DNA from: a virus
Length of the DNA stretch: 26,361 nucleotides
Reading direction: 5' to 3' (one strand)
Virus record (IMG/VR): IMGVR_UViG_3300017951_000103
Span: 1 to 26,361 of that record
In this document: one piece after another, positions 6,205 through 13,253 of the stretch
Layout of the letters: each line of letters starts with the position of its first letter
Numbering within the stretch: position 1 is the stretch's first letter
Translations under genes and position numbers: made by a program
Notes under the pieces: generated by a model
The model's input: the letters and a program-made list of their open reading frames with translations, nothing else
The model's database searches: none
Told to the model about the DNA's origin: nothing

Positions 6205-6513
6205 ATGAACAAGATTATCAAAACTCTTGAGGCGATCAGCAATACATTAGAGACAATCGCTGATGATGTCCCTGAGGAACACCAAGGGGATGTTGATACC
6301 GCACGTGATGAACTGGACGAGGTGATATTCTACCTTATACAGATACGCGCACAGGCAGAATGTACAAACACAGAGGAGGGACAAACCATATGGAAGCTTA
6401 TGCAGATTGCTATGTCTCCTGACAGCCCTGACGTGGCTACTGTGTGTGATGAGGCCGCAAAGCTTATTGCCTTCCAGCGTGTACATATCAAGGAACTGAA
6501 AGCCAATGTCTGA
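6205..6513 (+). CDS. Hypothetical helical protein (102 aa)
   Basis: ATG at 6205 is preferred to the in-frame GTG at 6196. It follows the previous stop closely, and the first residues (MNKIIKTLEAISNTLETIAD) then form an amphipathic helix. The rest is acidic and helical (DVDTARDELDEVIFYLIQIR), ending in KLIAFQRVHIKELKANV. The build is that of a small helical bundle. The last eight bases overlap the next gene. The function is unknown. Confidence 0.7.
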   Translation: MNKIIKTLEAISNTLETIADDVPEEHQGDVDTARDELDEVIFYLIQIRAQAECTNTEEGQTIWKLMQIAMSPDSPDVATVCDEAAKLIAFQRVHIKELKANV

Positions 6514-6964
6514 TCCTATCTACTCCCTCTATGATGGGAACTATCCCAATGACAGTGAGATAGTCCTTCTGTACGTCAGAGAGGTGCCATACCCCATAGC
6601 TGGCTTCTGGCACGTTAAGAGCCAGCGGTTCTATTTCTTACACTGTGAAGTCTTTGACAGCCACTCAGTGACGCATTGGCAAAGATTCCAGTCACCATAT
6701 CCACCTGCAAACAACTTAGGGAACGTAAAACATGGACACAACCCAACACTCTGCCATCACATTCCGCGTGGTCACCAAGATGTGGGAGAAGAACCACAGC
6801 AAGAGAGCCATGGAGCAGTTCAGGAAACTAGCGGAGAACTACGCAAACAGTTTCTTCCGGCAGAAGCAGGAGGTATGTGGCCTACTATCAATGTCACCCA
6901 TCAGGGATACGATGAAAAAGGACACCCGAAACCCAAGCCTTCTACACATAGAGGCTCTGTGTAA
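6506..6964 (+). CDS. DUF551-like protein, with an extended C-terminus of doubtful reality
   Basis: The first 70 or so residues have the shape of DUF551 proteins found in many phage genomes: a start with Asp-Ser ahead of a strand (NDSEIVLLYVREV), an aromatic GFWHVKSQRFYF, and the closing VTHWQRFQSPYPP that ends that family. The frame then runs on for about 80 more residues rich in His, Gln and Pro, overlapping another frame (6732-7037) that looks more protein-like up to about 6870. The final 29 residues from an internal Met (6872; MWPTINVTHQGYDEKG) again look plausible. A lost stop or a frameshift is possible. The N-terminal call is good; the C-terminal part is uncertain. Confidence 0.6.
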   Translation: MSDPIYSLYDGNYPNDSEIVLLYVREVPYPIAGFWHVKSQRFYFLHCEVFDSHSVTHWQRFQSPYPPANNLGNVKHGHNPTLCHHIPRGHQDVGEEPQQESHGAVQETSGELRKQFLPAEAGGMWPTINVTHQGYDEKGHPKPKPSTHRGSV

Positions 6965-7037
6965 GATGCCTTCCAGCAAAACACCATATCAACTCAGCAA
7001 CATGGGACAGCAGGTGGTTGTCACAAAGGAGATATAA
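6732..7037 (+). CDS. Hypothetical protein overlapping the DUF551-like frame (101 aa)
   Basis: AGGGA lies 9 bases before the ATG at 6732. Residues 1-48 read like a real helical protein (SAITFRVVTKMWEKNHSKRA, then MEQFRKLAENYANSFFRQKQ). After that the composition changes and the other frame (6872-6964) looks more natural; the last 23 codons, from ATG 6966, could be a separate micro-ORF with its stop just before the next gene. The frame ends at TAA 7035-7037, overlapping the ATG of the nuclease gene. No family is recognised. Treat the N-terminal half as supported and the rest as open. Confidence 0.5.
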   Translation: MDTTQHSAITFRVVTKMWEKNHSKRAMEQFRKLAENYANSFFRQKQEVCGLLSMSPIRDTMKKDTRNPSLLHIEALCKMPSSKTPYQLSNMGQQVVVTKEI

Positions 7038-7573
7038 TGTTCTTCAAGATAGAGTGGTTCCAGCGTTTCACTCCCAAGAAGCGCACTGGTAATGTGATAC
7101 AATCGTGGGACACCAATATCTATACAGGAAAACACGCAGACCCGTCAGTATGCCTGACAGCAGAGATAAAGGACGGTGTTATTCATGTGATTGATGTGGA
7201 CTCCAAGAAGTTAGAGTACCACGATTTAAGAAGGTGGGTGTGTGAGAAGGCTGAACAATATGATCCTGAGGCTATACTGTTAGAGGACACCTTGGCTGGT
7301 ATGTCACTCATTCAAGACCTCAGGTACAGCACAGGACTCCCCATCATTGCTATACAGCCAACCCGCTCAAAGTTGGAGCGCATGGCACGTGTCGTAGGTA
7401 TGATAGAGGCAGGAGTATTATCTATTCCCAAACAAGCACCTTGGCTTGGTTCATTCACGTCAGAGGTCATGTCATTCCCTCACGGTAGAAGTGAGAGCCA
7501 AGTTGATAGCCTCACCCAGATGTTGGAATGGTATCGTGGCAGACAGAAACCAAAACCAGTGAGGCGCATATGA
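7037..7573 (+). CDS. Stand-alone terminase large-subunit nuclease domain (RNase H-like fold)
   Basis: The 178 residues match only the C-terminal nuclease half of a phage terminase large subunit. The start MFFKIEWFQRF equals the segment that normally follows the ATPase. Then come VIQSWDTN (Asp25), ADPSVC (Asp35), a strand VIHVIDVD, AILLEDTLAG (Glu83/Asp84), LIQDLR, a Pro-rich APWLGSF, and SQVDSLTQMLEW (Asp157). In relatives the last motif is HDDQVDS; here it is SESQVDS, so one acidic residue is replaced. No Walker motifs exist in or upstream of it. A full-length terminase is encoded separately at 11655-13253. AAGGAG (7026-7031) gives a good start. It may act as a separate DNA nuclease or resolvase. 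Confidence 0.88.
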   Translation: MFFKIEWFQRFTPKKRTGNVIQSWDTNIYTGKHADPSVCLTAEIKDGVIHVIDVDSKKLEYHDLRRWVCEKAEQYDPEAILLEDTLAGMSLIQDLRYSTGLPIIAIQPTRSKLERMARVVGMIEAGVLSIPKQAPWLGSFTSEVMSFPHGRSESQVDSLTQMLEWYRGRQKPKPVRRI

Positions 7574-7746
7574 AGTACCGTGTATTCACCATGGAGGCTG
7601 ATGTTACGCGCCAGCCTCTTGAGCGTGTGAAGGTAGAAGTCCGTGCCAGAGATGGCCTAGAGGCTTTGAAGAAGGCGCGTAAGAAACTGGAGAACGATGG
7701 CTACAAGGTCATACGTCCCCGATTACCAATCAAAGAGAAGGAGTAG
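7570..7746 (+). CDS. Small basic hypothetical protein (58 aa)
   Basis: The start ATG at 7570 overlaps the stop of the terminase-nuclease-domain gene (ATGA), which argues for coupled translation and a shared transcript. The upstream in-frame ATG at 7528 would add 14 residues that lie inside the nuclease gene, so it is not preferred. The sequence is a beta strand (MKYRVFTMEADV), then a second strand (VKVEVRARDG), a helix LEALKKARKKLENDG and a basic end. A beta-beta-alpha fold of this size is consistent with a dsRBD-like or other small nucleic-acid binding protein, but no family is recognised. Confidence 0.72.
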   Translation: MKYRVFTMEADVTRQPLERVKVEVRARDGLEALKKARKKLENDGYKVIRPRLPIKEKE

Positions 7747-7750
7747 AATT

Positions 7751-8263
7751 ATGAAAACCATGAACATTTACTTTAACGGTGATGGAGAAACCTCCATCAG
7801 CATGACCAAGGATATGCTGGAGAGCAATCGTGTGGTGCATCTTGATAACCTCAAAGATGCAATAGTTCTCTTGCGGTGTGCTTATCACAGGCTTCTTGAA
7901 CAGGAATACATACACCCGTGGCCAGAAAATGTACCAACCGGATTTGATGGCCCCACTGATCTTTTAGAGATATCTTTAGATGAAAACATACCAATGGGTA
8001 TTGGTGGTGCTGTTCAGGAGATGATGAACGGATACAAGGTAGAGCGCAAGGGCTGGAACGGTAAAGGTATGTTCTTATACTATGTCCCTGCCAACAAATA
8101 CCCCGCTGACCGCAACACACTCAAGACTATGGAAGGTGTGTTCAAAGATGACATGGTGCCATACGGTGCCTATATAGCCATGAAAACAGCGCAAGATAAC
8201 GTGGTGCCATGGCTTGCATCCCAGACAGACTTACTGGCCACTGACTGGCAGGTGGTCACATAA
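7751..8263 (+). CDS. DUF2829 (Tad2-type) domain protein with an extra N-terminal region
   Basis: ATG at 7751 has AAGGAG at 7738-7743. Residues about 84-170 match DUF2829: GGAVQEMMNGYKVERKGWNG, GMFLYYVPA, PYGAYIAMKTAQDN, and the signature VPWLASQTDLLATDWQVV. DUF2829 is the domain of Tad2, a phage protein that sequesters the cyclic ADP-ribose signal of Thoeris defence. Usual Tad2 proteins are about 90-100 residues; here a further 83 residues precede it (MNIYFNGDGETSISMTKDML, then a helical AIVLLRCAYHRLLEQEYI) that I do not recognise. Its 3' end overlaps the convergent Ref-like gene by 33 bases. Domain call secure; anti-Thoeris role inferred. Confidence 0.87.
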   Translation: MKTMNIYFNGDGETSISMTKDMLESNRVVHLDNLKDAIVLLRCAYHRLLEQEYIHPWPENVPTGFDGPTDLLEISLDENIPMGIGGAVQEMMNGYKVERKGWNGKGMFLYYVPANKYPADRNTLKTMEGVFKDDMVPYGAYIAMKTAQDNVVPWLASQTDLLATDWQVVT

Positions 8264-8575
8264 CTCACCATCAATAAGAACCTCACCATACTGTTCAATC
8301 AGCATCTCACGGCACTGGCGTAGTAATTCACGTTCAGTGCCGTACTTCTTTTCCCACGTGCTGGATCCTCCATGGAACCCTACACCATGACCACCTTGAT
8401 GATGCTGGTGACACAATGGCAGTATTTCCCACTCAGGAGCTCTCTGAGCCATGCCATAGCCATTGCGTATATGATGGATGCAAGCAGGAGAGTCCTCAAT
8501 ACCCATGTTATGACAGGCGATACAGCCAAGCCCTACAATGCGTTCACGGTGTTGCTTCTCTAATCGCTTGGACAT
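8231..8575 (-). CDS. Ref-like HNH nuclease (recombination enhancement family)
   Basis: A 114-residue protein. A metal site and HNH core are visible: GCIACHNMG (C18-x2-C21), IHHIRNGYGMAQRAP with His34-His35, and PLCHQHHQGGHG, followed by the helix KKYGTERELLRQCREML. This is the layout of Ref proteins of phage P1 type, RecA-dependent HNH nucleases, and of similar phage HNH proteins. The ATG at 8575 is used; a GTG at 8584 is an alternative, and no strong ribosome site is seen for either. The gene runs against the DUF2829 gene, sharing 33 bases at the 3' ends. A terminator lies just upstream of it, so it may depend on readthrough or its own weak promoter. Confidence 0.85.
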   Translation of the reverse strand: MSKRLEKQHRERIVGLGCIACHNMGIEDSPACIHHIRNGYGMAQRAPEWEILPLCHQHHQGGHGVGFHGGSSTWEKKYGTERELLRQCREMLIEQYGEVLIDGELCDHLPVSGQ

Positions 8576-8598
8576 AGGACACACAATAGAAGATGGGT

Positions 8599-11654: not shown

Positions 11655-13253
11655 ATGGCTGGTGATAGAGTGGACGCTCACTGGCTAGACCTTTCACTGA
11701 GGGATTGCATTGCTTATTACAGTGCGATTGAGAAAACGGCCAAGGATGACACTGGCCTCAAGTACATACGGCGTAACTTTGCACAGCTTGACCTGTACTA
11801 TCTCTTAGTGAAGGTTCTAGGCCGTGAGGATATGATGAAGCAGACCAACCCGCATGGTGCGGAGTGGCTGTATCAGAGATGCCGTGAGGTGCAACGCAAC
11901 CCCAATGGTAACTTGGACTTATGGGCGCGTGAGCATTACAAGAGTACAATCATCACGTTTGGACTGACGATATTTGATATCATCAACGATCCAGACGTTA
12001 CAATTGGGATATTCTCCCTGACACGGCCATTGGCCAAAGGTTTCTTGCGACAGATAAAGCAGGAATTGGAAAGCAATACTGACCTCAAGTATTTGTTCCC
12101 CGATATCTTCTATGAAGAACCAAAGTCAGCGGCTCCCAAGTGGTCTGAGGATGATGGAATTGTGGTGAAGCGCAAGTCCAACCCCAAAGAGGCCACAGTA
12201 GAAGCGTGGGGACTGGTGGATGCCATGCCTACTGGTAAGCACTTTAAGCTACGCCTCTATGATGATGTGGTAACTGAACGCTCAGTGACAACGCCTGAGA
12301 TGATTAAGAAAACCACTTACTCATGGGAATTGTCAGATAACCTTGGCGCACAAGGCGGTTATGAACGCTACGTTGGGACACGCTACAACTTTGCAGACAC
12401 ATATGCAGAGATGAAGAAGCGTAAGGTGGTCAAGATACGTGAGTATCCCGCTTGCCCTATGATGCGTTCAGATGATGGTGCTGATTGGGTGCCAGACTTT
12501 GATCAAGCCGTGCTGATGCCTCCTGCTCTGCTACGTGATAAGCGTAGAAAGCAGGGTGTGTTCACATTCGCGTGTCAGATGCTCCAGAATCCTGTGGCAG
12601 ACAGCGTACAAGGCTTCAAAGAGGACTGGCTTGAGTATTGGGACGCTGAAAACTGGAAGAACCTGAACATTGTTATCCTGGTTGACCCTGCATCAGCCAA
12701 GAAAACCACGTCAGACTACACTGCAATGATGGTGGTTGGCATTGGTGGTGATGGTTACGTGTACGTGATTGACATGGTACGTGATCGCCTGAACCTCAAG
12801 GAACGCACAGCCGCATTGTTCCACTTGGTACGGACATACAGCCCTATCAAGGTTGGATATGAGAAATACGGACTCCAGAGTGACATTGAGCATATCAAGT
12901 ACGTTCAGGAGCAAGAGAACTTCCGCTTCAAGATATCTGAGTTGGGAGGAGGATTGAAGAAAGAGGACAGGATACGCCGATTGGTACCACTCTTTGAGGA
13001 AGGAAAGATTCTCCTGCCTCGTAATTTGATATCACGTGACTATCAAGGTCAATCGGTGAACCTAACCACTTCCTTTGTGGAAGAGGAATACTTAGCGTTT
13101 CCTGTAGGCGCACACGATGACATGATTGACTGTCTTGCCCGTGTGATGGATGAGGAGATGAGAGGCACTGCCAAGCCTTCTCCTAAGCCGAAGAAGTTTA
13201 ACGCAATACGTGAGGCTCAACGCCAGATGCGCCGTAACAGGCCAGTTGTTTGA
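11655..13253 (+). CDS. terL: Terminase large subunit (ATPase and nuclease)
   Basis: A full-length 532-residue packaging motor protein. The ATPase has a Walker A-type loop, REHYKST at 92-98, and Walker B, LRLYDD at 199-204, followed by VVTERSV. The nuclease half has ILVDPAS with Asp344, SDYTAMMVVG, GYEKYG with Glu403, and GAHDDMIDCLAR with Asp488, Asp489 and Asp492. All acidic residues expected of the RNase H-like nuclease are present, unlike in the lone domain at 7037-7573. It pumps DNA into the prohead through the portal and cuts it. It follows terS by 11 bases and precedes the portal gene. Confidence 0.96.
   Translation: MAGDRVDAHWLDLSLRDCIAYYSAIEKTAKDDTGLKYIRRNFAQLDLYYLLVKVLGREDMMKQTNPHGAEWLYQRCREVQRNPNGNLDLWAREHYKSTIITFGLTIFDIINDPDVTIGIFSLTRPLAKGFLRQIKQELESNTDLKYLFPDIFYEEPKSAAPKWSEDDGIVVKRKSNPKEATVEAWGLVDAMPTGKHFKLRLYDDVVTERSVTTPEMIKKTTYSWELSDNLGAQGGYERYVGTRYNFADTYAEMKKRKVVKIREYPACPMMRSDDGADWVPDFDQAVLMPPALLRDKRRKQGVFTFACQMLQNPVADSVQGFKEDWLEYWDAENWKNLNIVILVDPASAKKTTSDYTAMMVVGIGGDGYVYVIDMVRDRLNLKERTAALFHLVRTYSPIKVGYEKYGLQSDIEHIKYVQEQENFRFKISELGGGLKKEDRIRRLVPLFEEGKILLPRNLISRDYQGQSVNLTTSFVEEEYLAFPVGAHDDMIDCLARVMDEEMRGTAKPSPKPKKFNAIREAQRQMRRNRPVV

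Follow-up and report, generated by a model that had tools for sequence, protein, structure and literature searches.

A stand-alone terminase nuclease domain, probably a pseudonuclease, in a viral record that also holds an intact terL

The locus and its gene neighbourhood

The window, by which we mean the whole stretch of DNA analysed here, is a linear virus record of 26,361 bases (IMGVR_UViG_3300017951_000103). The proteins most similar to its portal and capsid come from Kochitakasuvirus KPP25, Acidovorax phage AP1 and a virus contig of 59 kb (capsid 53%), a kinship which suggests that the window probably represents some half of a genome of around 60 kb. No relatives emerged when its portal and helicase were used for scans. 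An ORF of 178 codons lies 3' of a DnaB-like helicase, towards the close of a series of small rightward genes, and is followed by a small basic ORF, a Tad2-like gene and then a block of genes on the opposite strand; the packaging module (TerS, TerL and portal) is located downstream in the same genome.

7025..7031, plus strand: ribosome-binding site AAAGGAG, 5 nt upstream of the ATG (from the sequence)
7035..7039, plus strand: TAATG overlap of the start codon of the nuclease gene with the stop of ORF 6732-7037 (from the sequence)
7037..7573, plus strand: stand-alone TerL nuclease domain, RNase H-like, probable pseudonuclease, 178 aa (profiles, AlphaFold2)
7570..7746, plus strand: 58-aa basic ORF (pI about 10), ATGA-coupled to the nuclease gene
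7751..8263, plus strand: Tad2-like (Thoeris anti-defence 2-like) gene, next in the operon (PF11195, 2e-23)
11655..13253, plus strand: resident full-length TerL, 532 aa, of a different lineage, HDD intact (phrog_38, 1.9e-56)

ORF 7037-7573 is protein-coding by its codon score (0.10, compared with -0.43 for each of the two alternative frames), and its GC content (0.47) is that of its neighbours. The original prediction had credited the gene with its own ribosome site and with ATGA coupling to the 58-aa ORF, and both are present: AAAGGAG precedes the ATG by 5 nt, and the stop codon overlaps the start of the downstream ORF at 7570. Its description as an early gene is drawn from position alone.

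Several neighbouring features deserve mention in their own right. About 230 bases are shared, in different frames, by ORFs 6506-6964 and 6732-7037, neither of which has a family match; one of them may be spurious or frameshifted. The 58-aa partner was considered as a relative of T7 Gp2, the inhibitor of the host RNA polymerase; two weak independent hints agree, but direct sequence comparison is weak, and the resemblance amounts to no more than a tentative pointer. A Ref-like RecA-dependent nuclease is encoded on the minus strand (8231-8584; PF16786, 7e-11), just after a terminator-like hairpin (8624-8607). Further upstream, positions 1848-2030 encode 60 aa from the N-terminus of a cytosine DNA methyltransferase (phrog_363, 2e-15), a fragment that overlaps an endonuclease VII gene (1978-2433); the remainder of the methyltransferase was not seen.

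A terminase nuclease domain without its ATPase

The 178-aa protein scores above the curated cut-offs of two terminase profiles, TIGR01630 (1.2e-12, 48.6 bits; cut-off 41.65) and PF17289 (Terminase_6C; 1.7e-7, 31.8 bits; cut-off 22.6), and its best match in PHROGs is phrog_5573 (2.6e-25), a 250-aa family. The AlphaFold2 model, with 46 relatives in the alignment, has a mean pLDDT of 93 and a pTM of 0.88. Its best matches in the PDB are TerL nucleases (TM about 0.65-0.7), headed by the Avs3-bound phage TerL, RB49 and T4 gp17, D6E and G20c; RuvC ranks later, and the model also resembles a poxvirus resolvase. A complete RNase H-like domain is predicted to fold. The profile matches and the modelled fold bear out the original prediction that the gene encodes the nuclease half of a terminase only.

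The domain aligns from position 286-287 of 485 in a full-TerL profile (44 TerLs), directly past the ATPase, and the upstream DNA adds nothing, so that the gene does start at the boundary between the two halves, as had been proposed. The N-terminal packaging ATPase that characterises a functional TerL is missing from the protein. In the six frames of the window no ATPase remnant of the stand-alone lineage was found (the resident TerL apart), and the three forward frames of the 1.1 kb upstream contain no ATPase sequence; in agreement with the original prediction, there is no full ATPase half upstream. A whole TerL broken by a frameshift or by assembly was rejected on the same grounds. The in-frame upstream sequence DAFQQNTIS was likewise discarded as a version of the TerL motif YQQNP, since the upstream extension gains just 0.6 bits.

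Known systems offer partial parallels. The split or two-piece TerLs of phages likewise have a TerL piece annotated as an ORF of its own; the terL of ICP1 is intron-split (PMC10448857), and from their family lengths we infer that phrog_5573 and phrog_4758 reflect split TerLs. In these cases the pieces add up to one TerL, whereas here the window has no ATPase half of the stand-alone lineage and a different full TerL is encoded at 11655. RuvC-like resolvases belong to the same superfamily and share the overall fold, but the structural match is weaker than that to TerL. The protein has no match among the resolvase families of Pfam, NCBIfam and PHROGs and lacks the metal-A His/Asp, and in both respects differs from a Holliday-junction resolvase.

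The active site

7109..7111, plus strand: Asp25, retained; counterpart of G20c D294 as first catalytic Asp (all 71 relatives have D)
7283..7285, plus strand: Glu83, retained; counterpart of G20c D347 as second catalytic acid (all 71 relatives have E; G20c alignment)
7490..7498, plus strand: Ser152-Glu153-Ser154 where G20c has H427-D428-D429 (His-Asp-Asp); loss of the metal-A ligand
7505..7507, plus strand: Asp157, invariant, not the metal-A ligand, kept (alignments of relatives)

In the TerL of G20c, D294, D347 and D429 are indispensable, and metal A is bound by D294 and D429 (PMC5389553). The stand-alone protein presents Asp25 and Glu83 at the first two of these positions and Ser154 at the third. 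Every relative with a residue in the metal-A column (Ser154 here, Asp429 in G20c) has Asp there (70/70 and 41/41, thus 111/111), the position of the C-terminal motif being set by family alignment and not by structure superposition. All three HDD codons are altered and the change from Asp to Ser154 (AGC) takes at least two base changes, so the conversion of HDD to SES is not a single read error. As aligned, the protein has lost its metal-A ligand. With the TerLs of PF17289/TIGR01630 (the psiM2 ORF9 type) it has in common the family, the fold and two of the three essential acids, and its C-terminal tail resembles that of its best TerL relative; it differs from them in the missing ATPase domain and in this replacement of HDD by SES.

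The residues that the original prediction had listed as kept fare unequally. Asp25, Glu83 and Asp157 are retained and invariant among the relatives, but Asp35 occupies a non-essential position (D in 58/71, S in 13/71), Asp84 departs from the Lys of most relatives, and Asp157 does not bind metal A. The alteration of the last motif had been recognised correctly, although the residue that matters is Ser154, at the second D of HDD, and not Asp157.

Mutation of D429 to Asn yields one of the least active G20c variants, and mutants of H427 and D428 are also impaired (PMC5389553). Given that loss of the metal-A ligand nearly abolishes cutting by G20c, the stand-alone protein is probably a pseudonuclease. 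Its residues suggest that it would not cut DNA efficiently, while some residual cutting is possible because Asp25, Glu83 and Asp157 are still there. The active role that had originally been envisaged, as a domesticated nuclease, a resolvase or an accessory nuclease of packaging, is hard to reconcile with the replacement of the metal-A Asp, the His and the other Asp by Ser, Ser and Glu, respectively. A variant enzyme that employs Glu153 or Asp157 in place of the lost ligand, and that would cut host, branched or phage DNA, is improbable in our estimation. The three retained residues and the likeness of the fold to RuvC and the poxvirus resolvase speak for it. The site also tolerates some change: P22, T4, RB49 and P74-26 have Asp as the metal-A residue, whereas SPP1 has His (PMC7672431). 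Tth RuvC has a His at the equivalent position as well. Ser, however, is an unusual metal-A ligand here, a mere Asp-to-Asn exchange cripples G20c, all three positions of HDD have changed in a motif whose other two members also matter in G20c, and the HMM matches are to TerL and not to resolvases.

The resident TerL and the origin of the domain

The intact terL that had been noted at 11655 encodes a 532-aa protein which keeps HDD and belongs to a separate lineage; its identity to the stand-alone domain is 23% over 146 aa. A duplicate of the resident TerL generated through terminal repeats, as in Caulobacter phages, was rejected because the identity is just 23%, and an ancestor among the KPP25-type TerLs that related phages carry is unsupported (24% over 70 aa). 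Compared with the resident TerL the domain is, by its sequence, foreign. This bears on a further possibility, namely that the protein is an accessory packaging subunit that cooperates with the resident TerL. The TerS-TerL-portal module downstream in the same genome would accommodate such a role, which we nevertheless consider highly unlikely: the two proteins are of different lineages, the gene sits in an operon ahead of the opposite-strand block, and it was not found in relatives with the resident TerL type.

The nearest sequences to the stand-alone domain are full TerLs in alphaproteobacterial genomes (41-43% identity), and in the tree it is nested among alphaproteobacterial TerLs (SH-aLRT 87) on the longest terminal branch of its group (1.31; median 0.54). 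Of 25 near-invariant columns, the domain retains 18 and breaks seven; among the relatives, 70/71 have lost none to three and the remaining one has lost 12. Such breakage of conserved positions would also fit decay. In a crude neutral simulation, which starts from the present sequence and ignores indels, the frame stayed stop-free in 3% of runs once 28% of residues had changed. Taken together, the simulation and the kept columns argue mildly, not decisively, for selection on the gene.

KPP25 (L140), AP1 (L141), MW202615 (L275) and the window have portal and capsid in common and carry several different TerL types, and terL therefore seems to be exchanged frequently in this group. One full TerL of the resident type (L018, 1582-3873) contains an apparent in-frame intein near the end of its ATPase half.

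The search for other stand-alone copies

No second stand-alone copy was found among 88 profile-scan loci, 175 domain-bearing open frames and 385 alphaproteobacterial genomes, and a scan for the pattern of ribosome site plus ATG gave none among the matches listed. At least 200 residues lie upstream of the domain in 151 of the 175 frames, and 18 others run into an end; besides that of the window, the distinct frames left over are L210, with a shortened ATPase side near the contig start, L115, RBC57 and SIO1. L115 was rejected as masked DNA, and RBC57 and SIO1 as frameshifted or split records. Most alphaproteobacterial matches are open frames of more than 430 codons, and the short ones that were opened are pieces at contig ends (G029 C6, G029 C9 and G145 C133) or a scrambled TerL fragment (G067). 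As to named phages, each match with an opened record is a full or frameshifted TerL. One genome of 3 Mb (G029, that of locus L113) has about seven TerL-like places, some ending at contig ends, which suggests many prophages or gene-transfer elements.

In related phages the same isolated gene was not found: it has no match in 11 contigs whose TerL is 49-59% identical to the resident TerL (many of them fragments) or in two relatives, of 59 and 62 kb, that are nearly complete; these searches could overlook a strongly diverged copy. A literature search found no description of a stand-alone TerL nuclease domain. With a disrupted active site and no isolated intact-domain homologue found, most of what the original prediction had named as counting against it is seen.

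The occurrence of a single copy is what would be expected if the gene were a 3' remnant of a terL, whether an old or a newly arriving one, and were surviving by chance in a packed operon while drifting to loss, its start and ribosome site being incidental. The want of a match in the 59- and 62-kb relatives and the 11 related-TerL contigs, the exchange of TerL types in the group, the broken conserved positions, the methyltransferase fragment in the same genome and the scrambled terL fragment of G067 are all consistent with this explanation. Against it stand 178 open codons (3% in the neutral simulation, which ignores indels), a start that falls exactly between the two domains, with the strong ribosome site AAAGGAG and coupled overlaps on both sides, the fold confidence of 93 (pLDDT) and a coding signature that matches the neighbours, and on balance we think it rather unlikely. 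If it does hold, the gene is a clean example of terL turnover.

A candidate binding role

Our preferred reading, which we hold tentatively and at somewhat less than an even chance, is that the gene stems from a TerL acquired horizontally and truncated, and encodes a pseudonuclease that cuts poorly and binds DNA or terminase partners. We judge a binding-only pseudonuclease likelier than a relic, and a relic likelier than an active variant nuclease. A foreign TerL would have been acquired, its ATPase half would have gone, and the RNase H-like half would have come to be encoded alone. A precedent for the loss of catalysis is the vestigial nuclease domain at the C-terminus of phi29 gp16, which has retained DNA binding (PMC7672431). 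Both domains have the TerL-type RNase H fold and (as predicted for the stand-alone protein) no catalysis, but that of phi29 has stayed joined to the packaging ATPase and no longer has the whole fold. Like it, a nuclease half without efficient cutting could still bind DNA or terminase partners. The phi29 precedent and the role of TerL as a trigger of Avs defence (PMC12931631) are among the reasons why we place binding without cutting first.

Under the favoured binding reading, the domain would most likely act by occupying a normal binding partner of TerL nuclease domains, be it branched or double-stranded DNA, the packaging motor of a rival phage, or a host sensor that recognises TerL. The latter two targets are guesses from the context beside the Tad2-like gene; this anti-defence gene just downstream makes a binding or decoy role plausible but unproven. 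That the nuclease half of a foreign TerL serves specifically as a dead decoy, binding TerL-sensing proteins of the Avs type or jamming rival packaging motors, is conceivable but distinctly improbable. The single known copy and the presence of a second gene fragment in the same genome (the methyltransferase at 1848-2030) count against the favoured reading, and overall we regard the locus as a modest but real lead, with one copy and no precedent found. TerL is among the most conserved phage proteins, and a free, probably dead domain beside an intact TerL would offer a natural test of whether pieces of the trigger are used as decoys or as weapons against rival motors.

A possible route to such genes is visible in full-length homologues. 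In several full TerLs (L151, L169, L202, L209 and others) a GGAG and an in-frame ATG are found at the domain boundary, where they mimic a ribosome site and start; these were selected for by the scan and give no estimate of frequency, but through them a stand-alone nuclease domain might arise.
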